A DNA stretch of 64,000 nt from Pseudooceanicola lipolyticus (GTDB taxonomy: Bacteria; Pseudomonadota; Alphaproteobacteria; Rhodobacterales; Rhodobacteraceae). Under the pieces are notes generated by a model. That model saw only the letters and a list, made by a program, of their open reading frames with translations, did not search any database and was not told the DNA's origin. The position numbers were made by a program, and so were the translations under genes. The stretch spans positions 35,604-99,603 of the forward strand of contig NZ_PGTB01000006.1 in assembly GCF_002786325.1 (NCBI RefSeq). Direction: 5' to 3'. Position 1 is the stretch's first letter, and the number at the start of each line of letters is the position of its first letter. Positions 7,499-27,580 of the stretch are shown in pieces.

Positions 7499-8215
7499 TC
7501 AGGCAATGCCGGCGTGGTCAGTGATGCGCGCCCTCGCCTGCAGCAAGTGATAGGCCATCGCGACACCCGCGGCCTCGCCGTCACCCGCGCGGATCGCCTC
7601 CAAAATCTGCCGGTGTTCGCTGATCACCACGTCGATCCGGGCCTGCGTGCCCTCGCGAGTCAGCTTTTGCGCCACATCGATACCCTGTTCGATAGCATCG
7701 CGCGCGCAATCGAGCATTTGCACGAAAACGTCGTTGCCCGAGGCAATGGCGATGGCGTGGTGAAACTGGTAATCGGCTTCAAAGGAGGGCGTGCGCGCCT
7801 GCATGGAATCCTCAAGCGCCTGCAGCGCCGCTTCGATCCGCGCGATGTCCTTGGAATTTGCACGCAACGCGGCCATGCGGGCCGTCGCCTGCTCGACCGT
7901 GATGCGCGCCTCTACCGCGCGCATCAAGCCTGCGACGGAACCGGCCGTGGCATATTCGATCAGCTTTTCCGACGGGCGGCGTCGCACGAAGGTCCCGACC
8001 CCGCGACGCGCCTCGACCAGCCCGTCTTCCTGCAGCTTGCGCAAGGCCTCGCGCACAACCGGCCGCGACACGCCGAAGGCGGTGGCGATCTGGTTTTCTG
8101 AGGGCAGCTTCTCGCTCTGGGCGAGCTTGTTTGAGACGATCTGCTCGAGGATCTGCCCGTAGAGCTGATCGGCCAGCGTCTGGCGCTTCTTGATCTTCAG
8201 TTTTGGCGCATCCAC
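7499..8215 (-). CDS. GntR/FadR-family regulator (FCD domain), last gene of the larE-larB operon
   Basis: A 238-residue GntR regulator. The winged helix covers about residues 13-75, with LPSENQIATAFGVSRPVVREALRKL as its helix-turn-helix region. The C-terminal half is an all-helical FCD domain with histidines (YQFHHAIAIASGN, ISEHRQIL, AYHLL) placed as in metal- and carboxylate-binding FCD proteins. It starts 3 bp after the larB stop, so it is cotranscribed with larE and larB. A second, different FCD regulator heads the same operon. FCD regulators commonly sense small carboxylates, which fits control of a 2-hydroxy acid pathway. Confidence 0.9.
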   Translation of the reverse strand: MDAPKLKIKKRQTLADQLYGQILEQIVSNKLAQSEKLPSENQIATAFGVSRPVVREALRKLQEDGLVEARRGVGTFVRRRPSEKLIEYATAGSVAGLMRAVEARITVEQATARMAALRANSKDIARIEAALQALEDSMQARTPSFEADYQFHHAIAIASGNDVFVQMLDCARDAIEQGIDVAQKLTREGTQARIDVVISEHRQILEAIRAGDGEAAGVAMAYHLLQARARITDHAGIA

Positions 8216-8218
8216 CGG

Positions 8219-8926
8219 TTACTCCCCCGATTTCGCGCGGCGCATCATATTGGCCAGTCTCAACGCCGAAGTCGCCGCGCCATAGCCATTGTCGATGTTC
8301 ACCACCGTCACACCCGGTGCACAGCTGGCCAATATCGAATCGAGCGCGACCCTCCCGCCGCGGGCAACACCATAACCGACCGAGGTTGGCACACCAATAA
8401 CCACCCCCGGAACCAGCCCGGCAACAACCGACGGCAGCGCCGCATCCATCCCCGCGAAGACGATCACCACATCCATCTCGCGCAGCAATTGCTCGCGCGC
8501 GAGCAGGCGCCAGAGGCCTGCGACGCCTACATCCGAGACTTCACTTGCGTCCATCCCGCCATAGGCCAGCGTGCGTTTCGCTTCGGCCAGCGGGACATAA
8601 TCAGAGGTACCGGCACTGACCAAGGCGATGCGCGGATTCTTGGACAAAGGTCCGATTTTGCCCAGAATGGCGGTGCGGGATGCCGCGCAATAGTCGACCG
8701 ATCGGCGCAGGTCGTCCGGCAATGCGGCAAATTGGTCAGCCGTCAGCCGCGTCAGCAGAAGCCGGCGGTCCTCGTCCCGCGCATCCGCCAGAATACCGGC
8801 GATCTGGCTGACCGACTTTTGCCCGCAGAGCACCGCCTCCTCGATCCCGATCCGGTGGCCTCGGCCCCGGTCGAAGGTCACGTCAGGATGCCTGTCCGGG
8901 CCTGCCTCATTGATGGACAAATGCAC
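8219..8926 (-). CDS. larB: LarB, nickel-pincer cofactor biosynthesis (NaAD carboxylase/hydrolase)
   Basis: LarB carboxylates the pyridinium ring of nicotinic acid adenine dinucleotide and hydrolyses it, the first step of nickel-pincer nucleotide synthesis. The protein has the AIRC/PurE-like C-terminal domain with VSAGTSDYVPLAEAK, DVGVAGLWRLL, VIVFAGMDAALPSVVAGLV and GVPTSVGYG, all characteristic of LarB. The N-terminal part contains the conserved ARLDHHR-like region as VTFDRGRGHRIG. I chose the GTG at 8926 (235 residues). A purine-rich ribosome site (GAGAGGA) lies just upstream and fits better still with a TTG at 8920. A longer reading to 9049 overlaps larE too far. The larE stop lies inside the first codons, so translation is coupled. 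Confidence 0.88.
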   Translation of the reverse strand: MHLSINEAGPDRHPDVTFDRGRGHRIGIEEAVLCGQKSVSQIAGILADARDEDRRLLLTRLTADQFAALPDDLRRSVDYCAASRTAILGKIGPLSKNPRIALVSAGTSDYVPLAEAKRTLAYGGMDASEVSDVGVAGLWRLLAREQLLREMDVVIVFAGMDAALPSVVAGLVPGVVIGVPTSVGYGVARGGRVALDSILASCAPGVTVVNIDNGYGAATSALRLANMMRRAKSGE

Positions 8927-9692
8927 TTCCTCTCGAATAGGCGCGCAGGCGTATCGGCCGGTCATCGGCGGTGAACCGCTGCACCTGCGCCACGATTTCC
9001 GCGCGCTTCTGCGCGGAAAGGCTGGCCAGCGCAAGCCGATCGAGTTCAACAGCCCAGCCGCCGCGCAGCAGGCGGCAGCGCAGGGTCACGTTGCCCAAAA
9101 GCCCTCTGAGCATCATCTCGACCCGGTCGATCACCTGCAGATCCGCAGGTTCCACCCGCAGACCGGTTTCGATCCGGCTGGCCAGACAGGGCGCCGCGGG
9201 CAATTCCGCCAGATCGCCAAGCCCGAGCATACGCGCCAGCACCCGCACATCCGCCTTGGACATTTCCGCATCGACGAAAGGATGCAGCACCCCATGTTCC
9301 GCTGCCGCCTGCAATCCGGGTCGGTAATCGGACAGGTCATCGGTATTTGTTCCCGCCGCCACCAGCGGCCCCATGCGGGCAAGCGTGCCATAGAGGTTCG
9401 ACTTGCAGAAATAGCAGCGGTTCACCGGATTGGCGCGATAGGCCGGATCGGCGAATTCTCCCGCATCGACCAGTTCGAGATGCAGCCCCCGGTCTGCCGA
9501 AAACGCCTTGACCCGCGCCGTGGCGGCGGCGGGCACAGCGGCAGAGACAGCATGGCAAAGCGTTACCCTATCGGCGCCACGCACATCGGCCGCGGCGGCG
9601 GACAGGGTCAGGCTGTCGATCCCACCGCTCAGGGCAATGGTCAAGGACGCGGGTGCCTCGAGCGCAGCGTAGAGGGCCGCCGGTACGCTCAT
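8907..9692 (-). CDS. larE: LarE, ATP-dependent sulfur insertase of nickel-pincer cofactor synthesis
   Basis: LarE adenylates the dicarboxylated nicotinic acid mononucleotide made by LarB and converts its carboxylates to thiocarboxylates. The protein has the PP-loop ALSGGIDSLTLSA (residues 20-32), an ATP pyrophosphatase fold, and AAGTNTDDLSDYRPG. Cys169 in PAAPCLASRIETG matches the sulfur-donor cysteine of the Lactobacillus enzyme. There are two further cysteines in NRCYFCKSNLY (93 and 96). A CxxC plus the later Cys is the three-cysteine set of [4Fe-4S]-dependent LarE proteins such as that of Thermotoga, so this enzyme may be catalytic rather than sacrificial (inference). Start overlaps the upstream gntR stop (ATGA). 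Confidence 0.93.
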   Translation of the reverse strand: MSVPAALYAALEAPASLTIALSGGIDSLTLSAAAADVRGADRVTLCHAVSAAVPAAATARVKAFSADRGLHLELVDAGEFADPAYRANPVNRCYFCKSNLYGTLARMGPLVAAGTNTDDLSDYRPGLQAAAEHGVLHPFVDAEMSKADVRVLARMLGLGDLAELPAAPCLASRIETGLRVEPADLQVIDRVEMMLRGLLGNVTLRCRLLRGGWAVELDRLALASLSAQKRAEIVAQVQRFTADDRPIRLRAYSRGSAFVHQ

Positions 9693-10444
9693 CCGCTCAG
9701 GCCATCTTTCATCTTGAACCGCGCCAGCAGCCGCGCGCTCGACATCTGCAAATGGTCCCGCATCCGCTGCCGCGCGCTCTCGGCGTCGCCCTTGGCGATG
9801 GCGGCGGCGACGGCGTGGTGTTCCTGCACGGCATCCCGGCTTTCGCCGCCGACCTTGATGGCCTGCAGCCGCCCGGCCAGCATGGTCTCGCGCAGGCTGG
9901 CGCCTAGGTAGTTGAACAGGCTCAGGTAATAGCTGTTCCCGGTCGCCTCGCAGACCGCACGGTGAAAAGCCAGATCGGCGTTCACCCCCGTATCCACAGC
10001 GGGGCCGGCGCCACGGATGGCGCGGCCATAGGCGTCCGCGGCGCGCTGGATGCCTTCCCGCGCCTCGGGCGTGGCGCGGGCGGCGGCAATCGCCGCGGCC
10101 TCGATCTCCAGCCCCATGCGCAATTCGAGAATCTGTTCCAGCTTGCGCTGGCTCTCCATATCGCGTTCGGAAATCGCAAAGCCTTGACGGGGCCGGTTGC
10201 TTTCCACGAAGGCCCCGCGCCCCTGTCGGCTGGACAACATGCCTTCGGCCTTCAGCCGCGCTACGGCTTCGCGGATCACGGTGCGGCTGACATCGAAATA
10301 ACCCGCCAGCGTGCTTTCGGAAGGCAGCACCTCTCCGACGCTCCAGACACCGTTTACAACGTTCTGCCGCAGGACCTCGGTCACCTGGTCGCTGAGCGTC
10401 GCCCCGTCGACAAGCGGCGCTGGCGCCTGAAGATTTCCTGTCAT
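9689..10444 (-). CDS. GntR/FadR-family regulator (FCD domain), first gene of the larE-larB operon
   Basis: A 251-residue regulator with a GntR winged helix (LPSESTLAGYFDVSRTVIREAVARLKAEG) and an FCD effector domain (LAFHRAVCEATGNSYY, DAVQEHHAVAAAI). The ATG at 10444 has a good ribosome site (AAGGAAG) about 6 bp before it; a longer reading to 10486 lacks one and would run through the operator. It diverges from the TAXI-TRAP operon, with the palindrome at 10481-10493 directly in front of its start, so it is probably autoregulated and controls both transcripts. It overlaps larE by four bases. FCD regulators of lactate or glycolate genes (LldR, GlcC) are the closest functional analogues. Confidence 0.9.
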   Translation of the reverse strand: MTGNLQAPAPLVDGATLSDQVTEVLRQNVVNGVWSVGEVLPSESTLAGYFDVSRTVIREAVARLKAEGMLSSRQGRGAFVESNRPRQGFAISERDMESQRKLEQILELRMGLEIEAAAIAAARATPEAREGIQRAADAYGRAIRGAGPAVDTGVNADLAFHRAVCEATGNSYYLSLFNYLGASLRETMLAGRLQAIKVGGESRDAVQEHHAVAAAIAKGDAESARQRMRDHLQMSSARLLARFKMKDGLSG

Positions 10445-10480
10445 GGTATCAACTTCCTTTTGCCGAATGGTACTCCTGTA

Positions 10481-10493
10481 TGACAAGTTGTCA
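10481..10493. promoter_or_regulatory. Candidate GntR/FCD operator
   Basis: TGACAAGTTGTCA is a perfect inverted repeat of 6-bp arms around one base; the flanks extend it imperfectly (GTAT on the left, AATAC on the right). It lies 37 bp in front of the gntR-larEB start and in the shared region with the TAXI-TRAP operon, where a regulator encoded here would be expected to bind. A TTGACA hexamer occurs nearby at 10582-10587. Confidence 0.6.
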
Positions 10494-10697
10494 ATACTGA
10501 CGCTTTTCCGCTAAAATCCCCGCTTTCAGCCGCATACAACATGACAGGGACCGCGATTTTTCCACAAATTTGTATTTATTATTGACAGGCTATTGAAACC
10601 ACCGCAGTCTGCAAAATCACGGCAAGCGGGTGTCAGGGAGGGCCCGGAACCCATCCAGATTCTGCCGACACACAGTCAAAACTCGGGAGGAGTTTCA

Positions 10698-11657
10698 ATG
10701 TCACTTATCTTCAAGACGATTCGCCAGACAGCGGCGGCCACCATCCTTTTCACCGCCACCGGCATGGCCGCACAGGCGCAAGACATAGTCATGGCCACCG
10801 GCCAGCAGGGCGGCTCCTGGTATCCGGTGGGCGGGGCCATCAAGGCGATCATGGAGCGTGAAAACCCCGACATGGACATCACCGTGATGCCGGGCGCCGG
10901 CGTCTCCAACGTGGTGGGCGTGGATGCGGGCCGCTTTGGCATCGCCTTTGCCAATTCGATCTCCACCGTGGACAGCATGTCCGGCAAGGAGCCCTTCCGC
11001 AAGGCCACCACAAATGTGTGCAACCTTGGCATCCTCTACCCGCAATATTTCCAGATCGTCGCGCTGGCCGATTCCGGCATCGAGACGGTCGCCGACATGA
11101 AGGGCAAGCGCCTGACCACGCAGCAGCTGGGCAACACGGGCGAATTCCTGACCCGTGAACTGCTCTCCACCGCCGGCATGACATTCGACGACCTGTCGAG
11201 CGTGGCCAACACCTCCTATTCCGACTCCGCCTCGCAGATGAAGGACGGCCAGGCCGATTTCTTCACGCTGGGCTCGTCGCTGCCGACGGGTTCGGTGATG
11301 GATCTGGCCTCCTCACGCAAAATTCGCCTGATCGATGTGGATGAGGAAACCTTTAAATACTTCAAGGACAAGAATGCGGCCTTCCAGCGTCGTGAAGTCA
11401 AGGCCGGTGCCTATCCGGGCTTCGACGAAACCGTCCATGCCATCAGCTATGACACGCATCTGGTCGCACCCTGCGACTTTGACGGCGAGATCGTCAAATC
11501 CGCGCTCGCCGCGATTGCCGACAACAACGACAGCTTTGCCGCCATCAGCAAATCCATGGCGAACCTGACCGTCGAGGAAATGGCCACCGACATCGGCGTG
11601 CCGTTCCACCCTGCCGCAAAGGAGTTCTACGCCGAGCGCGGCGTTTCGGGGATGTAA
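10698..11657 (+). CDS. TAXI-family TRAP transporter solute-binding protein
   Basis: A 319-residue periplasmic binding protein. Residues 1-26 form a Sec signal peptide ending in AAQAQ. The mature N-terminus has VMATGQQGGSWYPVGGAI, the hallmark of TAXI proteins, then DITVMPGAGVSNVVGVDAGR and the IAFANSIST segment. The ATG at 10698 is preceded by GGGAGGAG; an earlier in-frame start lacks a ribosome site and would bury the signal peptide. It is the first gene of a plus-strand operon with the fused TRAP permease, a ThDP enzyme and a FAD dehydrogenase. TAXI systems are known for glutamate, 2-oxoglutarate and other carboxylates; here a 2-hydroxy acid is the likely ligand (inference from neighbours). 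Confidence 0.93.
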   Translation: MSLIFKTIRQTAAATILFTATGMAAQAQDIVMATGQQGGSWYPVGGAIKAIMERENPDMDITVMPGAGVSNVVGVDAGRFGIAFANSISTVDSMSGKEPFRKATTNVCNLGILYPQYFQIVALADSGIETVADMKGKRLTTQQLGNTGEFLTRELLSTAGMTFDDLSSVANTSYSDSASQMKDGQADFFTLGSSLPTGSVMDLASSRKIRLIDVDEETFKYFKDKNAAFQRREVKAGAYPGFDETVHAISYDTHLVAPCDFDGEIVKSALAAIADNNDSFAAISKSMANLTVEEMATDIGVPFHPAAKEFYAERGVSGM

Positions 11658-11785
11658 TCCACCGCTGACAAACAAAGGGCCGGCCGGGGAATGTGCTCCG
11701 CCCGGCCCACAGTCACCAGTTCCATGGCGCGGACGGCTGCAATCCGGCGCGCATGGCTGCCCCCACTCTAGACGCGAGAACCCCC

Positions 11786-13660
11786 ATGCAACTGTCGATC
11801 TTTTTTGACAAGATGCCCCTGATTACCCGCATCGCAAGGCTGATCCTGATTGGCATGGCGGTCTGGCATCTCTACGTCGCCTTCGTCGGCCCGCCCAACC
11901 CCTATATCATGCGCGGCGTTCACGTCGCCCTGGCGCTGCTGCTGATCTTCATCACCGTAAACCGCAAAGGCCTGCGCCATGAAGTCCCGCGCTGGTACGA
12001 CGTGGTGCTCGGTCTGGTGGCCATGGGTGCGGCGCTCTATCCTTCACTCAATCTCGACTACATCACGCAGCGGTTTCTCTATGTCGACCCGCTGCTGCCG
12101 ATCGACATCGTGGTGGGGATCATCCTTGTCGTCCTGCTGCTCGAAGCGACGCGCAGGATGCTCGGGCCGATGCTGCCCATCACCGCGATTCTCTTCATGG
12201 CCTACGGGCTGACCTTCACCTCCACACTCCCTTCGGTGATCCTCGAACAACTGTTCATGACGCCCGAAGGCATCTTCGGCATCCCGATCGCGGTCTCGGC
12301 CACCTATATGGTGCTCTTCATCCTCTTCGGCTCGCTCGTCGAACGTATGGGCGTCGGCCAGCTGTTCATGGATTTCGCCGTGGCGCTTACCGGACGTCAG
12401 GTCGGCGGCCCGGCCAAGGTGGCCTGCGTGACCTCGGGCCTCTTCGGCTCTGTGTCCGGCTCGGCGGTGGCCAATGTGATGACCACCGGCACCTTTTCCA
12501 TCCCGCTGATGAAGCGCATGGGCTTCAAGCCCGCCTTCTCTGGCGCGGTCGAAGCCGTGGCCTCCACCGGTGGCCAGATCATGCCTCCGGTCATGGGTGC
12601 GGCGGCCTTTGTCATGGCCGAATACCTCGGTGTCGGCTACCTGACGGTGGCGAAATACGCGCTTGCCCCGGCCATTCTGTTCTATGTCGCCCTCTTTGCC
12701 GCGGTGCATTTCGAAGCCAAGCGCAAGGGCATCGGCTCGGTCCCGAAAGAAGACCAGGTGCCGCTCAAGCAGGTGCTGACGGAACGCGGGCATCTGTTCC
12801 TGCCGCTGGCGATCATTGTCGGTGTGCTGATGATGGGCTATTCCGCGCCCTACGCCGCGCTCTGCGGGATCATCTCGATCGTGCCGGTTGCCGCCTTGCG
12901 CAAGACCACGCGGCACTACGTCAATATCGACAACATCCTCGACGCGCTTGAAAGCGGCGCGCGCAATGTGCTGTCGATTGCCGCGGCCTGTGCCTGTGCG
13001 GGCATCGTCGTTGGCGTGATCGACATCACCGGCCTCGGCCTGACCTTCTCCAACTTCGTCATCGAAGCGGCGCAGGACACGCTGGTTATCGCGCTCTTCC
13101 TGTCGATGATCGCCGGCATCATCCTTGGCATGGGGATGCCGACGACACCGGCTTATATCGTGCAGGTTGCCCTTCTGGTGCCGGCGCTGGTGAAACTGGG
13201 CGTGCAGGTCGAAGCGGCGCATCTCTTCGTCTTCTACTTCGCGATCCTCTCGGCCATCACCCCGCCCGTGGCCATGGCGGTCTATGCGGCCAACACCCTG
13301 TCGCAAGCCAAGATCGTCGCGGCAAGCTGGGCTGCCGTGAAACTCGGGGCCACCGGCTTCATCGTGCCTTTCATGTTCGTCTATGAACCGGCGATCCTAA
13401 TGCAGGGCTCGGCCATGCAAGTGACGCTTGTGCTGCTGCAGGCCACCATCGGGGTGATTTTGCTGGCCGCCGCCCTCCAGCGTTACTACTTTGGCAGGCT
13501 ATCCAGCGCATTGTCGGTCGTCCTCTTCGGCGCCTCGCTGCTGCTGATCTATCCCGATCTGCGGCTTACCGCCTCGGGCCTGGTCATCGCGGCGATCATC
13601 CTGGCCTTCCAGGTGGCCAGGAACCGCAATGTGAACAGCCAGCCTGCCACACATTTCTGA
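11786..13660 (+). CDS. TRAP transporter fused permease (4TM/12TM), TAXI type
   Basis: A 624-residue membrane protein that joins the small (DctQ-like) and large (DctM-like) TRAP permease subunits, as is usual for TAXI systems. It works as a sodium-coupled symporter with the preceding binding protein. The DctM part holds GSLVERMGVGQLFMDFAVAL, the GSVSGSAVANVMTTG motif and GMGMPTTPAYIVQVALLVPAL. The ATG at 11786 gives a normal short N-terminus (MQLSIFFDKMPLITRI); its ribosome site is weak, and a reading from 11693 adds a non-conserved 31-residue leader. The gap to the binding-protein gene is 128 bp, long for this operon. Confidence 0.93.
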   Translation: MQLSIFFDKMPLITRIARLILIGMAVWHLYVAFVGPPNPYIMRGVHVALALLLIFITVNRKGLRHEVPRWYDVVLGLVAMGAALYPSLNLDYITQRFLYVDPLLPIDIVVGIILVVLLLEATRRMLGPMLPITAILFMAYGLTFTSTLPSVILEQLFMTPEGIFGIPIAVSATYMVLFILFGSLVERMGVGQLFMDFAVALTGRQVGGPAKVACVTSGLFGSVSGSAVANVMTTGTFSIPLMKRMGFKPAFSGAVEAVASTGGQIMPPVMGAAAFVMAEYLGVGYLTVAKYALAPAILFYVALFAAVHFEAKRKGIGSVPKEDQVPLKQVLTERGHLFLPLAIIVGVLMMGYSAPYAALCGIISIVPVAALRKTTRHYVNIDNILDALESGARNVLSIAAACACAGIVVGVIDITGLGLTFSNFVIEAAQDTLVIALFLSMIAGIILGMGMPTTPAYIVQVALLVPALVKLGVQVEAAHLFVFYFAILSAITPPVAMAVYAANTLSQAKIVAASWAAVKLGATGFIVPFMFVYEPAILMQGSAMQVTLVLLQATIGVILLAAALQRYYFGRLSSALSVVLFGASLLLIYPDLRLTASGLVIAAIILAFQVARNRNVNSQPATHF

Positions 13661-13693
13661 TAATCTGAACGATCGGAACGGAGCACTTTCAAC

Positions 13694-15400
13694 ATGCTGC
13701 AAAAAGTATCCCTCAAGGCGCGGACGGGCGGACAGATCCTCGTGGATCAACTGCTGATCCACGGTGCCGACACCGCCTATTGCGTGCCTGGTGAAAGCTA
13801 TCTTGAGGTGCTCGATGCGCTCCATGACGTGCAGGACAGGTTCAAGCTGGTCAACGCGCGGCACGAGGCAGGGGCGGCCAATATGGCCGAGACCTATGGC
13901 AAGCTGACGGGCAAGCCGGGGATTTGCATGGTCACGCGTGGCCCCGGCGCCTGCCACGCGGCCATCGGCGTGCATATCGCGCAACAAGACAGCACGCCGA
14001 TGATCCTGCTGGTCGGTCAGATCGCCCGTGAAACCACCGATCGCGAAGCCTTTCAGGAAATCGATTACCGCGCGATGTTCGGCCCCATTGCCAAATGGGC
14101 CACCCAGATCGACGATCCGGCCCGCGTGCCCGAATATATGGCCCGCGCCTTTCGCGTGGCCACTTCGGGCCGCCCCGGCCCGGTGGTGATCGGCCTGCCC
14201 GAGGACATGTTGACCGAGGTTGTCTCGGTCCCGGACGCGCGGCCCTACAGTGCCACCCATGCGGCGCTTTCGGCCGAAAATCTCGCCATGCTGAAAACCC
14301 AGCTTGTGCAGGCCGAGCGCCCCCTGATGCTGCTTGGCGGGTCCGGCTGGTCGGATGAAAGCGCCGCAGCCATCACCCGCTTTGCCGAGACGAACCAGAT
14401 CCCGGTTGCGACCTCCTTCCGCCGTCAGGACATCGTCGACAATCTCTCGCCGGTCTTTGCCGGGGATTTCGGCACCTCCACCGCACCCAGCCTCTATGCG
14501 CATCAACGCGAGGCCGACCTTCTGCTCGTCATCGGCGCACGTTTGGGCGAAATGACGACCAAGACCTATACCACCATCCAATCGCCCAACCCGGCAACAC
14601 GTCTGGTGCATCTCTATCCCGACCCGGATGAGATCGGCCGCGTCTATTCGCCGGATCTTGGCATCGCCGCGGCCCCTGTCTCGGTGGCCGCCGCGTTGGA
14701 CGGCGTCGATCTGGGCCGAGCGCAGGCCTGGGGCGGCTGGTGCGAAACTTTGCACGCCGATTACCTGGCCGATACCGAAGCACCCAATGGCGGCGAATGG
14801 GATCTCGACATGGGCGTGGCCCTTGCCCAGCTGCGTGATCTACTGCCCGATGATGTCGTGGTGACGCTGGACGCCGGCAATCACACCGGCTGGGCGCAGC
14901 GGTTTTTGCGGTTTGGCCGGCCCGGCCGCATCATCGGCTCGACCTGCGGCGCAATGGGCTATTCCGTGCCGGCGGCCGTTGCCGCATCGATTGCCCGGCC
15001 GGACCGCCTGACCCTGTCTTTCGTCGGCGACGGCGGTTTCATGATGAGCGGCAACGAACTGGCCACCGCCGCACAATATGGCGGACGTCCCATCGTGCTG
15101 CTGTTCAACAACGGCATCTACGGCACGATCCGCATGCATCAGGAACGCGACCACCCCGAGCGGGTTTCAGGCACCACGCTGCAGAACCAGGATTTCGTCA
15201 AGATGGCCGAGGGGCTTGGTGCCCATGCCGAGCGGGTCACCAGGACCGCCGATTTCGCCGATGCTTTTGCCCGCGCCCGCGACAGTGGCCGCCCGGCCTT
15301 GATCGAACTGGTGACCGATCCCGAACAAATCTCGACTCGCACCACCATCAGCAAGCTGCGCGAGGCAGCTCGGAAAAAGGCCGAAGCCGGCCAGCGTTGA
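13694..15400 (+). CDS. Thiamine-diphosphate-dependent enzyme (acetolactate synthase-like 2-oxoacid decarboxylase/ligase)
   Basis: A 568-residue three-domain ThDP enzyme of the acetolactate synthase/benzoylformate decarboxylase superfamily. The PYR domain carries the catalytic Glu in NARHEAGAANMAE (about residue 58) and VTRGPGACH. The central domain is Rossmann-like. The PP domain has the ThDP/Mg motif SFVGDGGFMMSG followed by IVLLFNNG. It lies between the TAXI-TRAP permease and a FAD 2-hydroxyacid dehydrogenase, so the natural role is to act on the 2-oxo acid the dehydrogenase makes: decarboxylation, or carboligation to a second molecule. The true acetolactate synthase is unlikely since no IlvH small subunit is adjacent. 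Confidence 0.88.
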   Translation: MLQKVSLKARTGGQILVDQLLIHGADTAYCVPGESYLEVLDALHDVQDRFKLVNARHEAGAANMAETYGKLTGKPGICMVTRGPGACHAAIGVHIAQQDSTPMILLVGQIARETTDREAFQEIDYRAMFGPIAKWATQIDDPARVPEYMARAFRVATSGRPGPVVIGLPEDMLTEVVSVPDARPYSATHAALSAENLAMLKTQLVQAERPLMLLGGSGWSDESAAAITRFAETNQIPVATSFRRQDIVDNLSPVFAGDFGTSTAPSLYAHQREADLLLVIGARLGEMTTKTYTTIQSPNPATRLVHLYPDPDEIGRVYSPDLGIAAAPVSVAAALDGVDLGRAQAWGGWCETLHADYLADTEAPNGGEWDLDMGVALAQLRDLLPDDVVVTLDAGNHTGWAQRFLRFGRPGRIIGSTCGAMGYSVPAAVAASIARPDRLTLSFVGDGGFMMSGNELATAAQYGGRPIVLLFNNGIYGTIRMHQERDHPERVSGTTLQNQDFVKMAEGLGAHAERVTRTADFADAFARARDSGRPALIELVTDPEQISTRTTISKLREAARKKAEAGQR

Positions 15401-15412
15401 AGGATTGAAGAG

Positions 15413-16861
15413 ATGACCACTCTGAGCGCGCCGCCGACCGCGCCCGAAGCGGACGGTCGGGACCACACCGCCCTGCTGGCAAGCCTGCGCGAAGCCATCG
15501 GTGCCGCCCATGTCGTGACCGAGGCCCAGGACATGGCCGCCCGGCTCGTCGAGGATCGCGGCTTGCGGCAGGGCACGGCGCTGGCCTTGCTGCGGCCCGG
15601 CAGCACCGAAGAGGTCGCCACCTGCCTGCGCCTGTGCAAGGCGGCCAAGATGCCGGTCACCCCGCAGGGCGGCAACACGGGCCTTGCGGGCGGCGGTGTG
15701 CCGGATGGTGGGATCATCCTGACCACCGACCGGCTGAACCGCATCCGCCAGGTCGATCCGACCAATGCCACGATCACGGTCGAAGCGGGCTGCATCCTTG
15801 CCAATATCCAAGCCGCCGCCGATGCGGTTGACGCCCTTTTCCCGCTGTCACTGGCCTCTGAGGGCTCTTGCCAGATCGGCGGCAACCTCTCGACAAACGC
15901 AGGCGGCACCGCGGTGCTGCGCTATGGCAATGCCCGTGATCTGGTGCTCGGCATCGAAGCGGTGCTGCCCGATGGCCGGGTGCTGAACGACCTCAACGGG
16001 CTGCGCAAGAACAACACGGGATTTGACCTCAAGAACCTCTTCATCGGCGCCGAAGGCACCCTGGGGATCATCACCACCGCGGTTCTGAAACTCTTTCCAA
16101 AACCCAGCGCCCGTGCCACGGCGCTGGTGGCCTGTACCGGCCCGGACCCGGCGCTTGCGCTTTACGCGAGGATGCGCAGCCAGACCGCCGATACGCTCTC
16201 GACCTTCGAATATGTCGAACGGCTTGGCCTGGAAATGGTGATCGACCACACCCCGGGCTGCAGCGATCCGATGAGCGAAGCGCATCCGGCCTATTGCCTG
16301 ATTGAACTTACCGGCAATGGCGCGCAGGCCGACCTCGACACACGGCTCGAAGGCGCACTCGAAGTGGCCTTTGAAGCCGACCAGATTGTCGACGCCGTGA
16401 TCGGCGCATCCGAGGCGCAGAAAGACGCGCTTTGGGCATTGCGCGAAAACCTGTCGGAAGCGCAGAAACATGAGGGCGCCTCGATCAAGCACGATGTGTC
16501 GGTCCCGGTGTCCCGCGTTGCAGATTTTATCAAGGTCGCAACCCAGGCCTGTATGGATCACATGCCCGGCCTGCGCCCCTGTCCCTTCGGGCATTTCGGC
16601 GACGGCAATCTGCATTTCAACCTGACGCGCCCGGTGGACATGGCGGATGCCGACTTCCTCGCCGAGTACGGCGCATTTAATCGCATCGTGCATGACATCG
16701 TACACGAGATGGGCGGGTCCTTCTCGGCCGAACACGGGATCGGCACCTTCAAGCGGGCCGAGCTGCGCCGCTACAAGGATCCGGTGGCGCTTGAACTCAT
16801 GGCCCAGATCAAGGCCACCCTGGACCCCGATGATCTGATGAACCCGGGCAAGGTGCTCTGA
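15413..16861 (+). CDS. FAD-binding 2-hydroxyacid dehydrogenase (D-lactate dehydrogenase/glycolate oxidase GlcD family)
   Basis: A 482-residue flavoprotein of the FAD_binding_4 plus FAD-oxidase_C family, which includes D-lactate dehydrogenase (cytochrome), GlcD and D-2-hydroxyglutarate dehydrogenase. The FAD-binding part has TPQGGNTGLAGGGVPDGGI and NLSTNAGGTAVLRYG. The C-terminal substrate domain has CPFGHFGDGNLHFN, whose histidines bind a metal in D2HGDH-type enzymes, and AEHGIGTFKR. It starts 12 bp after the ThDP gene in the same operon. Predicted role: oxidation of the D-isomer of a 2-hydroxy acid to the 2-oxo acid, with electrons passed to quinone or cytochrome. Substrate not readable. Confidence 0.92.
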   Translation: MTTLSAPPTAPEADGRDHTALLASLREAIGAAHVVTEAQDMAARLVEDRGLRQGTALALLRPGSTEEVATCLRLCKAAKMPVTPQGGNTGLAGGGVPDGGIILTTDRLNRIRQVDPTNATITVEAGCILANIQAAADAVDALFPLSLASEGSCQIGGNLSTNAGGTAVLRYGNARDLVLGIEAVLPDGRVLNDLNGLRKNNTGFDLKNLFIGAEGTLGIITTAVLKLFPKPSARATALVACTGPDPALALYARMRSQTADTLSTFEYVERLGLEMVIDHTPGCSDPMSEAHPAYCLIELTGNGAQADLDTRLEGALEVAFEADQIVDAVIGASEAQKDALWALRENLSEAQKHEGASIKHDVSVPVSRVADFIKVATQACMDHMPGLRPCPFGHFGDGNLHFNLTRPVDMADADFLAEYGAFNRIVHDIVHEMGGSFSAEHGIGTFKRAELRRYKDPVALELMAQIKATLDPDDLMNPGKVL

Positions 16862-16993
16862 ATCCCCGTGCGGTATCGGGCATCGACATTGCCTAAACGG
16901 TCACAAAGCTCGCCTTCGTGGGCGCGACGGACTTAACCGTTGGCATACGCGGCTGGGTGGCGGGCAAGCAGGAATATCCAAAGTGCCCACGCG

Positions 16994-18175
16994 TCAGGTC
17001 TCTGCCGCACGGGCCCGCATCCGCCGCTCGTGCAGCGTTTCGGCATCGGCCAGATCGTCGCTTTCGGCCTTGATGGTTTCCTGCCCGCCGGGCCGCTGCG
17101 CCCGCTTGCGCCGCACCGCGCCAGCCATGTCACTTTCGCGCGGCAGGATCAGGCGGTCCACGACCGCACGCCTCAGCCCGAGCGTCGAGGTCAGCTCGAA
17201 CAGCCGCGTGGCGATGGCGTCTGCGGACGCGGGCCGCACCAGCAATTCCATCCGAGTGACCGGGCGGGATTTCTTCCCCTGCCCGGACAGCAGCAGCAGA
17301 TCGACCACCCCCGGCAGATCGCGCAGCCTGTCAACCGCCGCACCAAGCTCCTCGCCCGTCATATCGTCGATGTCGCAGGCCAGCTGGACCAGGCTGTCCT
17401 GATGAAACCCCGCCTCATCGGTGTCGAAGACGCTGACGCGCAGGATATTGGGCAGCCCTTTCATCACCCGAGTCCCGGCCCCCGATCCGGTGCCGCGCAG
17501 CCGCCCCGGCGGGCGGCTCACCGTCGGGCAACCGCCGGTGACATGGGCGAGGATCGCGGCCCCGGTGGGGGTAACGCGCTCGCCCGGCACACCGTCGTCA
17601 TGCCAGTCAAAGCCCTGCAGGATAAGCGCTGTGGCGGGTGCGGGCACCGGCATTTTGCCATGTGCCGTATCGACCAGCCCGCCCCCGAGCGGAAGGGGGG
17701 CGAGCGAGAATGTTGCCCCGCTGAGCGCGGCGCAGATGCTCCCGGCGGCGGTGACATCCATCAGCGCGTCCCAATCGGCAATCTCGTGAAAATGTACCCG
17801 GTCGATGGGAATGCCGTGCACTTGTGCCTCGGCCTCGGCGATCCGGTGCAGGATGGCACAGGCCGCCGCGGCGGTGCCCTCCAACAGCGGCGCCCGCTCC
17901 AGAAGGTCGCGCATCGCGCGGTAGGTGGTCTCGGCCCCGTGGCGCGATCCCGCGCCTTCGGCTGCCAGCACCAGTTCAAACCGTCGGGCGGTGATGCCCG
18001 AGGCGATATGTTCGGACAGTTCTGCCCGCCCCACCTCTGCCGGCAGCACCGCGGCCACATCGGCCAGCGCGCGCTCGACGAGATCGGGGAAGGCATCGAG
18101 CATCGCCGCGATGAACATGTCTCCCGCAGCGCCCCCGACCGGGTCGAGATGCAGGTGCAGTCCCTGCCCTCCCAT
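16994..18175 (-). CDS. larC: LarC, nickel insertase of nickel-pincer cofactor synthesis
   Basis: LarC inserts nickel into the bis-thiocarboxylate made by LarE, using CTP. The 393-residue protein begins LHLHLDPVGGAAGDMFIAAM, the LarC N-terminal motif (compare YLDCFSGISGDM). It carries PIDRVHFHEIADWDALMD in the middle and the C-terminal LarC2 part with LACDIDDMTGEELGAAVDRL. In Lactobacillus the full protein needs a programmed frameshift between larC1 and larC2; here both parts lie in one uninterrupted frame. The ATG at 18175 shares its A with the TGA of the larA homologue (TGATG), so translation is coupled. It converges with the FAD dehydrogenase gene. Confidence 0.92.
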   Translation of the reverse strand: MGGQGLHLHLDPVGGAAGDMFIAAMLDAFPDLVERALADVAAVLPAEVGRAELSEHIASGITARRFELVLAAEGAGSRHGAETTYRAMRDLLERAPLLEGTAAAACAILHRIAEAEAQVHGIPIDRVHFHEIADWDALMDVTAAGSICAALSGATFSLAPLPLGGGLVDTAHGKMPVPAPATALILQGFDWHDDGVPGERVTPTGAAILAHVTGGCPTVSRPPGRLRGTGSGAGTRVMKGLPNILRVSVFDTDEAGFHQDSLVQLACDIDDMTGEELGAAVDRLRDLPGVVDLLLLSGQGKKSRPVTRMELLVRPASADAIATRLFELTSTLGLRRAVVDRLILPRESDMAGAVRRKRAQRPGGQETIKAESDDLADAETLHERRMRARAAET

Positions 18176-19488
18176 CAATGTACCTCCGGCCATGGATTGT
18201 GCAGAAGTCCAGCGCTGAACTGCATCTCTTGCAGCGCGCCAATCACCTCCAGCCCCGGCCGCTCGCGCAGTTCCGGCAGCATGGCCTCCGAGGCATAGAT
18301 ATATTCCAGCTTCAGCGTGTTCGGGATCCGCAGCAGACGCACCTTGGCGATATCCTCGGCTCCGCATGTCTTGATCGCCGTCTGAATCGCAGTGCGGTCA
18401 CACGGCATGACCATCGGGATCTTGGCCTGTTTCACCACCTGCGAGGTGATCGCATTGGCATAGACCGCCTCGCGATCGAAATCCGCCTCCAACCGCCGGG
18501 TGATGACATCCGCCCGCGCGGCGCCGTTGCCATTGCCGTTGCTGCGCGGCGACAGGCCAAGCGCCACCAGCCGCGCGATATGCAGGTGCACCTGCATCTT
18601 GTCGCTGGTGAAGCGATGGGTGATGTTCGGATCCATCCCGGTACCCGAAAATTCCTTGCCGATCTCATCGACCACCAACACGTCGAGATCTCCCGAGGCG
18701 GTCGGCGCCTCGAGTGGCCCCAGCGGCAGGCGCGGCATGTTGCGCATCGCCTCCTGCAACAGCGGCGCTTCGGCCTCCAGCATGCCCTCGCTGTCCAGTG
18801 CCACGACCCGCGCCAGCCCGTCATAGGCGTTCTCGATCGTGCCGATCCCGAACAGCACCTTGCAACGCGCCAGCTTCATCCGCGCCATTTCGGCCACGAA
18901 GGTACCGACATTGTCGATGCCCCGCGAATGGCAGGTCTCGGCCCCCGACTGCTTGCCCAGGCCAATTGAGAGCATCTTGGCCAGCCCGCTCTCATTGGGT
19001 GCGCGGAACGACGTATGCGGTTTGATCCGGTTGAACAGGATGATGCCGTCGGCGGAATTGGCATGACGGTCCATCCGCACCGACAGACCATTGTCGAGCA
19101 CGCCGATCTCGTCCGTATCCATCGACGAACGGATCTCGCAGCCGAGGCTTTCTTCAGTCACGCCCAGCTTGGCCAGCAATGCGGTCTGCCCCTCGGCGGT
19201 GGCACCGCCGTGGCTGCCCATGGCGGGAACGACGAAGGGATGCGCGCCGCGCTCGCGAACCTCGTGGACAATCGCGGCCAGCAGTTCCGGCAGGTTGGCC
19301 AGCCCGCGGCTTCCGGCGGTGATGGCGATGGACATACCGGGGCGCACCTTGTCCACGCAGGCGGCTTTCATCGCCTCGGCCACGGCGGCCTGCGGCACCT
19401 CGATCTGGGTGGCTGCGAATTCCTGGCGGCACAGCGCAATGCGCGGCAGCGGCGTGTTTTCGACCAGTTTCACATAGTTCGGTTTCAT
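18175..19488 (-). CDS. LarA-family nickel-pincer-dependent 2-hydroxyacid racemase/epimerase homologue
   Basis: A 437-residue LarA homologue. Lactate racemase LarA of Lactobacillus uses Arg75, His108, His174, Lys184 (bound to the pincer), His200 and Lys298. Here the equivalents by order and spacing are Arg61 (TAGSRG), His93 (AMGSHGGAT), His158 (RIKPHTSF), Lys171 (SGLAKML), His187 (ETCHSRG) and probably Lys278 (DEIGKEFSG). The spacing differs by about one residue in the first half, and three residues are inserted between His158 and Lys171, so it belongs to a LarA subgroup other than lactate racemase. It is cotranscribed with larC, and larB and larE lie 8 kb away, so all cofactor genes are present. 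Substrate unknown; a 2-hydroxy acid imported by the TAXI system is likely. Confidence 0.85.
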   Translation of the reverse strand: MKPNYVKLVENTPLPRIALCRQEFAATQIEVPQAAVAEAMKAACVDKVRPGMSIAITAGSRGLANLPELLAAIVHEVRERGAHPFVVPAMGSHGGATAEGQTALLAKLGVTEESLGCEIRSSMDTDEIGVLDNGLSVRMDRHANSADGIILFNRIKPHTSFRAPNESGLAKMLSIGLGKQSGAETCHSRGIDNVGTFVAEMARMKLARCKVLFGIGTIENAYDGLARVVALDSEGMLEAEAPLLQEAMRNMPRLPLGPLEAPTASGDLDVLVVDEIGKEFSGTGMDPNITHRFTSDKMQVHLHIARLVALGLSPRSNGNGNGAARADVITRRLEADFDREAVYANAITSQVVKQAKIPMVMPCDRTAIQTAIKTCGAEDIAKVRLLRIPNTLKLEYIYASEAMLPELRERPGLEVIGALQEMQFSAGLLHNPWPEVH

Positions 19489-19924
19489 CTGCGCTGTCCT
19501 TCCAGACGTTTACCCAGTTCAGCCCATGACCCCGATGGGCCAGGGTGCCATTTCTCTTCGCCGGGACGAAACGCCTCGGGTATTGCTTTGCTCACCCGAG
19601 GCATTGGCCAGGATAGGTTCGATGCGTGCTGGCCCCAGTTCTTCGAGGCTCTGTTCGCCGCCGACACCGGGCCGCCGGCGGTGTCCCTATCGTCGCACAG
19701 CCTCCTTGCCTTCCGCGATGTGCGCGCCGTACCGCCGAGATGCTGCGCCGAACGGGTCGCGACAACGCCACTCTCCGTGGGTGACAGCAGCATCACCCTT
19801 GCCTCCCTGTCTTCTGGCATGGTCTGGCTGCCCATCGGATGCTTTCTTTCGGGGGCCAAAAAAATCGCTTCGGTCAGATGCGATCAACTGATATATTAGA
19901 TTTAACAGCTATGGAAGAGCCCGC
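19489..19924. other. Intergenic region between divergent larA homologue and gntR
   Basis: About 440 bp. It should hold both promoters. A perfect 8-bp inverted repeat, GCCTCGGG (19573-19580) and CCCGAGGC (19595-19602), could form a hairpin in the larA leader. Close to the gntR start lies TGATATATTA (19889-19898), a motif that recurs at 23666, 41823 and 47158. Open frames here show no recognisable protein. Confidence 0.45.
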
Positions 19925-20701
19925 ATGACTTCATTGAACAAGCCTGCAGCGCAGAGTGCACAGGCTTTTGCCAAAAGCATCCTCGGCGGCGGAGCAGGTT
20001 TGGGCTTGTTTGAAGGCGGCCCAACCGGGCGTGGGGTCTATGACACGCTGCGCGATCAAATCGTCAAGCTCGACCTGCCGCCGGGCACGCCACTTTTGCG
20101 GGCCGAGCTCGCGGAAATCCATGGCGTCAGCCTCACCCCCTTGCGCGACGCGCTGCAGCAGCTGGCCAAAGAGGGGCTGGTCAAAATCTACCCCCAGTCC
20201 CGCACATTGGTCACCCCCATCGACATGTCGGCCATCCGCGAGGCGCAGTTCATGCGCATCGCGCTGGAAACCGAGGTGGTGCGCCGCCTTGCCGAGGAAA
20301 TCGCAGCCGAGGCGCTGACTCGTCTGCGCAGCATCGTTGCCCTGCAAAGCAGCATCATGGATCAGCCCGGCGACGTGCTGACCTTTCAGGAACTCGACGA
20401 AGTGTTTCACCAGACCCTGTTTGTCGCGGCGGGTCATGTTCAGAGCCAGCGCATCATGCGCAGCCATGCAGGCCATCTGGAACGCCTGCGCCGCCTGAAC
20501 CTGGAAGACAGCGACGACGCAGGGCGCCTTCTGAACAACAGGGAAGTCATCCAGGGCCATAGCCAGATCCTCGACGGCATCGAAGCAGGCGATGCGGCGC
20601 GCGCGATGGATGCCTTGCGCCAACACCTGCAGCGCACGGTTGACCGGATGTCGGAAAAGCAGGCGGCTTTTCCGGAGTACTTCACGCCGGAAAAACCCTG
20701 A
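19925..20701 (+). CDS. GntR-family regulator (FCD domain) divergent from larA-larC
   Basis: A 258-residue regulator. An unusual 35-residue leader (Ser/Ala/Gly-rich) precedes the winged helix (VYDTLRDQIVKLDLPPGTPL, then LRAELAEIHGVSLTPLRDAL). The FCD domain follows, with ELDEVFHQTLFVAAGH and VIQGHSQILDGIEAGD. It diverges from the larA homologue, so control of larA-larC and of itself is the natural proposal. It is the third FCD regulator in the Lar region; its recognition helix (SLTPLRDALQQL) differs from the other two (SRPVVREALRKL and SRTVIREAVARL), so it should read a different site. It converges with the DapA-family gene, which it might also control. Confidence 0.9.
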   Translation: MTSLNKPAAQSAQAFAKSILGGGAGLGLFEGGPTGRGVYDTLRDQIVKLDLPPGTPLLRAELAEIHGVSLTPLRDALQQLAKEGLVKIYPQSRTLVTPIDMSAIREAQFMRIALETEVVRRLAEEIAAEALTRLRSIVALQSSIMDQPGDVLTFQELDEVFHQTLFVAAGHVQSQRIMRSHAGHLERLRRLNLEDSDDAGRLLNNREVIQGHSQILDGIEAGDAARAMDALRQHLQRTVDRMSEKQAAFPEYFTPEKP

Positions 20702-20930
20702 CGCCGCGCTTGCCCTCTGGGTCCGGTCTCGAAGGTCACCCGCGGCGGAGTTTCGGCGACGCGAAACGTGCCCGCCTGGTTTCAATCTTCACGCGTGGGA
20801 ATGTCGCCCAGGGTGATGGCGGGCCGACCCGAATTGCGCGCCTTGCCTGCCAATGGCTCGCCCCAAGGCCCCCTGATTGCGCAAGCTGCGCTTGTGAAAT
20901 CAGCGGCCGGTTTCTCCCGCCCGGCTGGGT

Positions 20931-21851
20931 TTATGCCGGCTCTTCGCTCAGCTGATCCAATCGGTTTTCAGCTATGAATTGATCAAGCGCCGCCTGCTGC
21001 CGTTCAGTCAAAGGCCAGGCAGAGGGCGGCCGTGTCGCGCCGCAGTCCTGCCCGATCGCCATCAGCGCGGCCTTGACACCGGTGACATTGGTGCCGTTGT
21101 GTTCTTCCGCGCGGATGTCCTCGAACAGACGCATTCCAGCAATCAGCCGGTTCGCCTGTGCATAGTCACCCGCATCTAGGGCGGCGTGAATCGCGACCGA
21201 CCGCTCTGGCCAGACATTGATCAACCCCGAGGTAAAGCCGCGCGCCCCCACCGCATAAAGCGGCGGCGCCCAGACCTCGGCCAAGCCGCCGACCCAGACG
21301 ATATGATCAGGGGCGGCGCTGATGGCGCGGGCAAGGTTCAGCGGGTGGGGCGTGGCCCATTTGACGCCCATGACTCCCTCAATCTCGCAGAGGCGCGCGA
21401 TGCCCTCCGGCCCCATCGCGTCATTGCGCAGATACAGCATGATCGGCAGCCCGCCCGAAGCATCGCGCACGGCACGCACGTAATCCACCGTGCCACGGGG
21501 CGAGACGAACGGGTCCGGCGGCTGGTGGATCATCAGCGCATCCGCGCCCGCATCGGCGCTGGCCCGCGCCAATGCACAAGCATCGCGTATGCCGCGACCG
21601 ACCCCGGCCAGCAGCGGCGCGCGCCCGTCGACCATTCCGGCCACTTCGCGCACCATGGTGCAGGCCTCTTCGTTGGTCAGCGCGTAATATTCGCCGGTAT
21701 TGCCGTTCACGACCGGGATATGCACCCCGGCCTCGAGCGCCCGGTCGATGACCGGCGCAAGCTTGCCCGGGGCGATTTCCCCTTCCGCATCATAGGGTGT
21801 CACGAGGATACCCGAGATTCCGGTCAGCGCCTTTTTCAGATCATGTGTCAT
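20931..21851 (-). CDS. Dihydrodipicolinate synthase family lyase/aldolase (2-keto-3-deoxy sugar acid type)
   Basis: A 306-residue DapA/NAL-family TIM barrel. The Schiff-base lysine is in EIEGVMGVKWATPHP, the conserved Tyr in PIMLYLRNDA, and the substrate-carboxylate loop is PVVNGNTGEYYALTNEE (Gly-Asn-Thr-Gly-Glu in place of the GTTGE of DapA). It is 11 bp downstream of an IlvD/Edd-family sugar-acid dehydratase in the same operon. That pairing is typical of non-phosphorylative pentonate or hexonate degradation: the dehydratase makes a 2-keto-3-deoxy acid, and the DapA homologue either cleaves it or dehydrates it further. Real lysine-pathway DapA is unlikely in this context. Confidence 0.88.
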   Translation of the reverse strand: MTHDLKKALTGISGILVTPYDAEGEIAPGKLAPVIDRALEAGVHIPVVNGNTGEYYALTNEEACTMVREVAGMVDGRAPLLAGVGRGIRDACALARASADAGADALMIHQPPDPFVSPRGTVDYVRAVRDASGGLPIMLYLRNDAMGPEGIARLCEIEGVMGVKWATPHPLNLARAISAAPDHIVWVGGLAEVWAPPLYAVGARGFTSGLINVWPERSVAIHAALDAGDYAQANRLIAGMRLFEDIRAEEHNGTNVTGVKAALMAIGQDCGATRPPSAWPLTERQQAALDQFIAENRLDQLSEEPA

Positions 21852-23605: not shown

Positions 23606-23637
23606 GGGCACCTCGCCAGCAGAAACTCTATTGCAAA

Positions 23638-27578: not shown

Positions 27579-27580
27579 GA

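Follow-up and report, generated by a model that had tools for sequence, protein, structure and literature searches.

A group 22 LarA homologue in a conserved roseobacter gene set and its candidate role in sugar-acid catabolism

Closest described systems

LarA homologues form a large superfamily, and many of its groups have no known reaction. The 64,000-nucleotide stretch of Pseudooceanicola lipolyticus DNA analysed here (the window) carries an island in which a LarA homologue and the larB, larE and larC genes, each above its NCBIfam cut-off, stand with a TAXI-TRAP importer, a thiamine diphosphate (ThDP) enzyme, a flavin adenine dinucleotide (FAD) enzyme and three FCD regulators. An initial annotation, made without database searches, had named all these genes at 7499–20701, and Pfam and NCBIfam scans found every one of them there. 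It proposed that a 2-hydroxy acid is imported, inverted to the D-isomer, oxidised to the 2-oxo acid and then decarboxylated or carboligated. Our own reading, tentative and with a little less than an even chance, is catabolism of a polyhydroxylated 2-hydroxy acid by import, inversion at carbon 2 and use of the resulting epimer by the FAD and ThDP enzymes. The substrate class is probably a sugar acid, most likely of four or five carbons.

The mandelate pathway (mdlA-mdlB-mdlC) joins a racemase and a flavin dehydrogenase to a ThDP decarboxylase acting on the 2-oxo acid, and the island shares this plan of racemase, flavin dehydrogenase and ThDP enzyme. However, mandelate racemase is an enolase-superfamily enzyme and mandelate dehydrogenase a flavin mononucleotide enzyme, whereas the island has a predicted LarA-fold enzyme and a VAO-type FAD enzyme (FAD_binding_4/FAD-oxidase_C). 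The non-phosphorylative L-arabinonate route consists of AraD, a DHDPS-type dehydratase and α-ketoglutaric semialdehyde (KGSA) dehydrogenase, and LarA is not known to be part of it. AraD-type and DHDPS-type genes adjoin the module, and Sulfitobacter adds an NADP aldehyde dehydrogenase; in P. lipolyticus, by contrast, the aldehyde dehydrogenase relative is encoded on another contig (69% identity).

What is said here of PMC7583248, PMC11770544, PMC7801405 and PMC10589216 applies to the portions of these papers that were available. With the LarA superfamily (PMC7583248, PMC11770544), the island shares the fold as modelled, two catalytic histidines, a cofactor-holding lysine and histidine and the accompanying LarB, LarC and LarE, while it differs in lacking an Asp72 counterpart, in a longer loop after the second histidine and in its TAXI and ThDP neighbours. 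In the GntE route, a LarA homologue of Thermotoga maritima converts mannonate to gluconate (PMC7583248). A Neobacillus group 22 locus resembles this route in having glucuronate isomerase, mannonate oxidoreductase, 6-phosphogluconate dehydrogenase and a gluconokinase-like kinase (below cut-off), but the same search found none of those genes near larA of the window, where a Thr-Ser pair replaces Glu-Val.

The group 22 LarA homologue

The LarA homologue was assigned to NCBIfam group 22 (NF052515, above cut-off) and also matches Pfam Lar_N (28.5, cut-off 23.3). Classical lactate racemase was rejected on this assignment and on the absence of any PDB match by phmmer at E 0.001, in agreement with the non-lactate function first proposed. 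We take the group number to follow the 25 groups of PMC7583248; in the available part of that paper, group 22 is absent among the 13 enzymes of Table 1, which uses its group numbers. The available text of PMC11770544 does not explain its LarAH numbers as groups, and a group 22 member there is possible. With the phmmer limit raised to E 10, the sole PDB match was a cytochrome (E 0.021), and a 58-row profile retrieved no PDB sequence at E 0.01. The AlphaFold2 model (pLDDT 92.5) nevertheless has the LarA fold: it gave 19 PDB fold matches at E ≤ 0.001, and the best 18 were LarA-family structures, with E values of 8.7e-13 to 3.1e-9 and TM (query) of 0.44–0.56.

Residues R61, H93, H158, K171, H187 and K278 are invariant in 58 sequences, and the first five are counterparts of LarA Arg75, His108, His174, Lys184 and His200. 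H158 was placed by a profile alignment of 35 columns (E 1.2e-4, probability 55%), in which it falls on the EPH-motif His of a classical LarA; the other four were placed by manual inspection of motifs and their spacing. In both proteins the Lys and the His are 16 residues apart, and the loop from His158 to Lys171 is three residues longer than in three classical LarA proteins. The D-gluconate 2-epimerase (GntE) signature, Glu followed by Val or Ser after the second catalytic histidine (PMC11770544, PMC7583248), is replaced by Thr159-Ser160.

Group 22 is rare: with P. lipolyticus counted both times, 11 of the 385 genomes from the class have it, as do 11 of the 395 from the family, and Haloferax volcanii gave a match among 14 control genomes. 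Haloarchaeal plasmids (H155–H170) carry further relatives, mostly annotated as DUF362, at up to four places per record. P. lipolyticus has a second larA copy of this group (G000:C187:4925-6148; L002, L125; 52% identity), near which AraD-like, UxaA-like, LarC and LarE relatives are encoded, the UxaA relative (56%) some 7 kb away.

Conservation and gene context

The neighbourhood recurs in related genomes, as initially expected: on Sulfitobacter and Pseudosulfitobacter plasmids and, as two blocks, in genome G534, from another genus of the same family. A 17-kb megablast query matched 100 plasmid records, 11 of which cover at least 80% of it in one place. The 20 plasmid records among the matches listed belong to Sulfitobacter and Pseudosulfitobacter, and mean DNA identity to the island is 81.5–83.3% in the 13 Sulfitobacter records among them. 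The ratio of nonsynonymous to synonymous substitution rates (dN/dS, simple Nei-Gojobori script) between the window and the related locus L003 is 0.044–0.128 across 13 of 13 genes compared; these genes are under purifying selection. Taken together, this ratio and the plasmid conservation indicate that the gene grouping is beyond chance. The FCD1 copies of the two loci are 89.9% identical.

Protein searches found LarA at no less than 80% identity in 60 of 109 matching plasmid records (13 Sulfitobacter, 47 Pseudosulfitobacter) and the FAD enzyme at 60% or above in 59 of 61 (13 and 46, respectively; limit E 1e-150), the co-occurrence of the two being compared by genus counts and not record by record. 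The listed Pseudosulfitobacter records are for the most part 82-kb plasmids that resemble one another, and they therefore count as few events. At a threshold of 80% identity, the ThDP enzyme was present in 67 of 200 records, among them a Sulfitobacter record in which the 19-kb stretch shown is free of lar genes. In some of the plasmids the two blocks are separated, as on NZ_CP054608, with larB to the FAD gene near 41–50 kb and larA to araD at 64–73 kb. According to the record sources, many of the plasmid-bearing strains were isolated with diatoms or other algae.

In the annotated regions of four plasmids, the island genes are accompanied in all four by a UxaA-like dehydratase, an NADP aldehyde dehydrogenase and a NIPSNAP gene between the halves, and in three by RraA, an HpcH aldolase and a 2-hydroxyacid dehydrogenase. 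Two of these genes survive as remnants in the window: two end pieces of the UxaA-like gene, most of its middle gone, lie between larA and FCD3, and an RraA-like fragment sits between FCD3 and the DHDPS gene. The module as first delimited holds the genes listed for it but leaves out the adjoining araD and DHDPS genes; the island extends past 20701, to 23611. The IlvD/EDD gene reaches the cut-off of L-arabinonate dehydratase (PRK13016), a class predicted from sequence, and the best NCBIfam relatives of the DHDPS-family protein are 5-dehydro-4-deoxyglucarate dehydratases, below cut-off. The Sulfitobacter UxaA-like protein is a single 515-residue chain whose sole NCBIfam match at E 1e-45 is galactarate dehydratase, also below cut-off. 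A sulfolactate racemase system (racemase, sulfopyruvate decarboxylase and sulfo-lyase) was rejected, given this galactarate-dehydratase likeness and the decay of the gene here.

In G534 the order NIPSNAP-FCD1-LarB-LarE-FCD2-TAXI-TRAP-ThDP-FAD is present, and FCD3-LarA-LarC lies on the same contig, 18–20 kb from the TAXI-ThDP-FAD block. AraD, DHDPS and UxaA were not found near this core (E 1e-10, 63 kb around), and relatives of AraD (71%) and the aldehyde dehydrogenase (77%) stand close together on another contig. Since G534 keeps the core set without a nearby araD, the gene list of the initial annotation is close to the minimal conserved set. These genes do travel together. The ThDP enzyme is found apart from lar genes as well, once in an arabinonate-type operon. 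The island is a conserved roseobacter gene set of known families in a combination that we did not find described: among the matches listed in the open-access literature, outside which most subscription papers lie, none linked a Lar protein, a ThDP enzyme and a TAXI importer, as the initial annotation had supposed.

The surroundings of group 22 relatives were sampled from the best 80 of 587 confirmed matches, and the sample therefore leans to near relatives. After 17 of the 80 loci, shorter than 19 kb, had been dropped, 63 full-length loci were tallied by tblastn (E 1e-15) against 33 reference proteins, some of which come from counted loci (L041, L043, L070 and L077). A sugar-acid gene of this set lies within about 10 kb of larA in 53 of the 63, a count that excludes matches to aldehyde dehydrogenases, short-chain dehydrogenases/reductases (SDR), DHDPS and 2-hydroxyacid dehydrogenases; some references are members of broad families (FGGY and PfkB kinases), and a protein that matches them may have a function outside sugar-acid metabolism. 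Gene by gene, IlvD/EDD was found in 20 loci, gluconokinase-like kinases in 28, UxaC in 14, 6-phosphogluconate dehydrogenase in 16 and UxaA/GarD-like dehydratases in 17. For IlvD/EDD, about 0.03 per 20 kb would be expected from the seven genes in the genome of P. lipolyticus, a rough one-genome yardstick, against the 20 of 63 observed. Within the family of the window, an AraD/IlvD relative is present in seven of the 11 LarA regions, one of these being the second copy of P. lipolyticus.

In a quick tree, LarA of the window groups with Sulfitobacter and Pseudosulfitobacter, and Salinicola and Xanthobacteraceae are the next to join (SH-aLRT 100). The closest relatives outside the clade (61–63%) adjoin PdxA and DUF1537-type kinase-like genes; in Salinicola and Xanthobacteraceae, larA is also near a DHDPS gene and a 2-hydroxyacid dehydrogenase, and the transporter genes beside it look, on manual reading, like TTT types. 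These neighbours give hints of four-carbon acids. In Neobacillus (L043), glucuronate isomerase, 6-phosphogluconate dehydrogenase and D-mannonate oxidoreductase reach NCBIfam cut-offs, and the gluconokinase-like FGGY kinase falls below its own (486 vs 648.6). This Bacilli clade is a predicted second family of mannonate-gluconate epimerases. KGSA dehydrogenase of Lihuaxuella (L041) and galactonate dehydratase of Domibacillus (L070) likewise reach their cut-offs. A cluster of glucuronate isomerase, mannonate oxidoreductase, gluconokinase-like and 6-phosphogluconate dehydrogenase genes surrounds group 22 larA in L043, L035, L055 and other Bacilli, only the L043 genes having been scanned.

From the gene context in near relatives and in Bacilli and Clostridia, the group 22 LarA appears likelier to be a sugar-acid C2-epimerase than a racemase of a simple acid, and the inversion to a D-isomer initially proposed is accordingly too narrow. 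The survey gives group 22 a testable substrate class, sugar acids, and predicts for one Bacilli clade the conversion of mannonate to gluconate.

The FAD and ThDP enzymes and the candidate pathway

The flavoprotein had been annotated as of the GlcD/D-lactate dehydrogenase type. It has the residues of a D-2-hydroxy-acid dehydrogenase, but it resembles the D-2-hydroxyglutarate type, and its score is below the cut-off for glycolate oxidase subunit GlcD (TIGR00387, 259.1 vs 567.9 bits). COG0277, a dehydrogenase group, corresponds to the GlcD family. Its occurrence near members of LarAH groups was already remarked on in PMC7583248. The nearest solved chains are 3pm9 and human D-2-hydroxyglutarate dehydrogenase (D2HGDH), and the pocket was compared with the D2HGDH residues published in PMC7801405 and PMC10589216. 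The residues for the lactate moiety and metal are kept (R344, H394, H401, E440 and H441, corresponding to Arg386, His434, His441, Glu475 and His476). At the distal site, Lys401 and Asn443 are kept as K359 and N403, Thr390 is replaced by Ser348 and Tyr432 by Phe392; six relatives have the same pattern. This Lys and Asn are missing from GlcD and from D-lactate dehydrogenases other than yeast DLD2 and DLD3 (PMC7801405). By its residues, the FAD enzyme is D-2-hydroxyglutarate-dehydrogenase-like rather than lactate- or glycolate-like, and since Lys and Asn of the distal site are kept, its substrate should have a polar or charged distal end, as in a sugar acid or a dicarboxylate.

The ThDP enzyme scores above the cut-off of the PRK08199 subfamily (NF006052) and below those of acetolactate synthase (TIGR00118, 317.3 vs 538.35 bits) and glyoxylate carboligase (NF008431, 237.5 vs 791 bits). 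Its Glu58, with an RHEAGA motif, aligns with the Glu that is the activating residue of ThDP enzymes and that glyoxylate carboligase lacks; the glyoxylate carboligase branch was rejected on this residue and the NF008431 score. A relative in Alloyangia (67%) is encoded directly upstream of araD in an arabinonate-type operon; the same stretch, from which lar genes are absent, also encodes 2-hydroxyacid dehydrogenases, DHDPS, aldehyde dehydrogenases and RraA. Relatives near 50% adjoin hydantoinase/oxoprolinase genes in Shinella and two Paracoccus, and further relatives have neither these nor araD as neighbours. In Paracoccus yeei (L104), a relative of the FAD enzyme (44% over 428 residues, E 9e-102) is encoded just upstream of the ThDP gene (51%), and the stretch has no LarA, LarB, LarC or LarE. 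Such a pair without LarA was seen once in seven non-lar contexts, and its adjacency supports the FAD and ThDP enzymes working as a pair. In L103, L104 and L107 (Shinella, Paracoccus), PRK08199-type genes adjoin hydantoinase/oxoprolinase A and B and a pyridoxal phosphate-dependent aminotransferase. A second, distant relative of the ThDP enzyme (27% identity) is encoded in the window at 55721–57217 (+). In the importer, the TAXI protein lacks the glutamate-type signature (Tyr45 and Gln93 of VcGluP, needed for glutamate binding): by manual mapping on an alignment with TtGluBP, Trp and Asn take the places of these two residues.

In the pathway that we propose, the TAXI-TRAP system would import a sugar acid, LarB, LarE and LarC would make the nickel-pincer nucleotide, and the group 22 LarA homologue would invert carbon 2 as LarA does, through proton-coupled hydride transfer between two histidines. 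The D2HGDH-type flavoprotein would oxidise one epimer, and the resulting 2-oxo acid would go to the ThDP enzyme, in this scheme probably for decarboxylation to an aldehyde one carbon shorter. With araD and DHDPS present, as here, dehydration of an epimer towards 2-oxoglutarate may offer a second route. The order from LarA through the FAD enzyme to the ThDP enzyme is about as open to doubt as the pathway itself; taken singly, decarboxylation rather than carboligation is doubtful, though a serious possibility. Unlikely is a more specific version, a carbohydrate equivalent of the mandelate pathway that uses the nickel-pincer cofactor. Here the group 22 LarA would epimerise C2 of a C4 or C5 sugar acid (for example the pairs erythronate/threonate and ribonate/arabinonate), the FAD enzyme would oxidise one epimer, and the PRK08199-type ThDP enzyme would decarboxylate the 2-keto sugar acid, shortening the chain to an aldose with one carbon fewer and bypassing both phosphorylation and dehydration. 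If the proposed pathway is true, a nickel enzyme is placed in roseobacter sugar-acid catabolism, on plasmids of often alga-associated strains, and the PRK08199 subfamily gains a role to test.

Several observations weigh against this pathway. In LarA itself, the Asp72 counterpart is missing (Ala or Val stands three residues before the Arg in seven manually aligned sequences), and Thr159-Ser160 match no signature quoted in the available parts of the cited literature. The PdxA genes of Salinicola and Xanthobacteraceae pass TIGR00557 and fail the D-threonate-4-phosphate dehydrogenase model (340 and 288 vs 583), and the kinases of these closest relatives are weak matches, one with 101 bits against 450 for D-threonate kinase and the other with Pfam NBD_C only. 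In 11 regions from other families of the class, with LarA 37–44% identical to that of the window, the same search found none of the counted genes, IlvD/EDD, UxaA/GarD and gluconokinase types included; SDR genes occur in three and an aldehyde dehydrogenase, DHDPS, a 2-hydroxyacid dehydrogenase and distant ThDP matches in one each. Ten of the 63 full-length loci lack a counted sugar-acid gene, including L022, of the LarA clade of the window, and L026, which has PdxA genes, a family outside the reference set. ThDP, FAD and TAXI relatives occur in none of the 11 LarA regions of the window's own family, within the stretches fetched, although one of those genomes has them 18–20 kb from LarA; in the 63 loci each occurs once, in three different loci. 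From these gaps and the rarity of the three genes, group 22 may hold several functions. ThDP relatives are also found without lar genes, so the link between the ThDP enzyme and LarA may be loose.

Alternatively, the island may hold two separate units, an epimerase/dehydratase route of the lar, AraD and DHDPS genes and a different pathway of the TAXI-TRAP-ThDP-FAD operon that merely shares the island and its regulators. This is rather unlikely but carries appreciable weight: IlvD/EDD accompanies group 22 LarA in seven of the 11 family regions, the three operon genes being absent from all 11 within the stretches fetched and scattered among the 63 loci, and the ThDP enzyme occurs with araD, alone or with an FAD relative where lar genes are missing. 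Against it, the operon of G534 stays with larB and larE, with LarA and LarC on the same contig and araD on another, and the close FAD and LarA relatives (59 and 60 records, not matched one to one) come from the same two genera. Moreover, L020 and L023, Sulfitobacter loci counted among the 63, have flanks that stop short of the place that the operon has in their relatives.

In line with the initial annotation, LarA might instead racemise a simple substrate, either a chiral 2-hydroxy acid or a dicarboxylate such as malate or 2-hydroxyglutarate, with FAD oxidation and ThDP decarboxylation to follow; this is improbable. The Lys and Asn kept in the FAD enzyme bind the distal carboxylate in human D2HGDH, and the initially listed gene set is conserved as such, both of which fit this idea; yet sugar-acid metabolism surrounds many group 22 relatives, the malate and 2-hydroxyglutarate racemases described in the available literature are of other LarAH groups with other signatures, and no 2-oxoglutarate or oxaloacetate decarboxylase is named among the 25 of 54 NCBIfam model matches listed for the ThDP enzyme. 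Slightly less probable again is that LarA only feeds dehydratases, interconverting C2-epimers so that UxaA/GarD-type and IlvD/EDD-type enzymes reach the same 2-keto-3-deoxy acid, with the FAD and ThDP enzymes acting at a later stage on a C2 product, for example glycolate and glyoxylate. The annotated plasmids speak for it, with the UxaA-like gene next to larA and AraD and aldehyde dehydrogenase nearby in all four, and the HpcH aldolase in three. However, the UxaA-like gene is decayed in the window and was not found near the G534 core, the FAD enzyme lacks a small glycolate pocket, and both the Glu and the low carboligase score of the ThDP enzyme disagree with glyoxylate carboligation.

Gene layout and other genes in the window

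The features of the island are given in Table 1. The starts of larB (8917) and larC (18187) were chosen here, the listed open reading frames (ORFs) opening at 9049 and 18367, respectively. With these starts, FCD2-larE-larB-FCD1 on the minus strand are spaced by −4, −11 and 3 bp, and larA and larC overlap by 13 bp on the minus strand. The TAXI, TRAP, ThDP and FAD genes run in the same direction on the plus strand with gaps of 35, 33 and 12 bp, and FCD2 is divergent from this operon, 106 bp from the TAXI gene. The source assembly has 439 contigs (5.23 Mb, 99% complete) and 5.7% contamination, and the wider genome is therefore to be read cautiously.

Table 1. Features of the island, in window coordinates
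Feature	Position	Strand	Basis
FCD/GntR-family regulator FCD1	7499..8215	-	Pfam GntR + FCD
LarB, nickel-pincer cofactor biosynthesis	8219..8917	-	NF033503, 240.5 bits, cut-off 175
LarE, sacrificial sulfur transferase	8907..9692	-	TIGR00268, 236 bits, cut-off 150
FCD/GntR-family regulator FCD2	9689..10486	-	Pfam GntR + FCD
TAXI-type TRAP solute-binding protein	10593..11657	+	TIGR02122, 209.6 bits, cut-off 84.35
Fused TRAP permease	11693..13660	+	TIGR02123, 618 bits, cut-off 321
ThDP enzyme, PRK08199 subfamily	13694..15400	+	NF006052, 788 bits, cut-off 539
FAD-dependent D-2-hydroxy-acid dehydrogenase, D-2-hydroxyglutarate-dehydrogenase type	15413..16861	+	Pfam FAD_binding_4 + FAD-oxidase_C
LarC, nickel insertion protein	16994..18187	-	TIGR00299, 160 bits, cut-off 90; NF052512, 94, cut-off 50
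LarA homologue, nickel-pincer nucleotide (NPN)-dependent isomerase group 22	18175..19488	-	NF052515, 484.1 bits, cut-off 400
UxaA/GarD-like dehydratase gene remnant	19522..19835	-	tblastn pieces: residues 1-27 and 468-515 of the L003 protein
FCD/GntR-family regulator FCD3	19925..20701	+	Pfam GntR + FCD
RraA-like gene remnant	20707..20856	-	tblastn, residues 36-85, 50% identity, E 1e-8
DHDPS-family protein, 2-keto-3-deoxy sugar-acid dehydratase type by likeness	20931..21851	-	PF00701
IlvD/EDD dehydratase, L-arabinonate dehydratase type	21863..23611	-	NF009559 (PRK13016), 1079.9 bits, cut-off 882

Beyond the island, an FAA-hydrolase-family gene is followed by a DctP/DctQ/DctM TRAP system (24539–30225); the start of DctP is doubtful, since its ORF is unusually long (703 aa) and matches in the C-terminal part only. 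A 1042-residue ORF at 31057–34185 has guanylate-cyclase and AAA ATPase domains. A branched-chain-type ABC importer, an amidase, an HpaB-type monooxygenase, a type III CoA-transferase and a TctA-type permease are encoded at 37077–51270, a possible cluster for aromatic or amide degradation.

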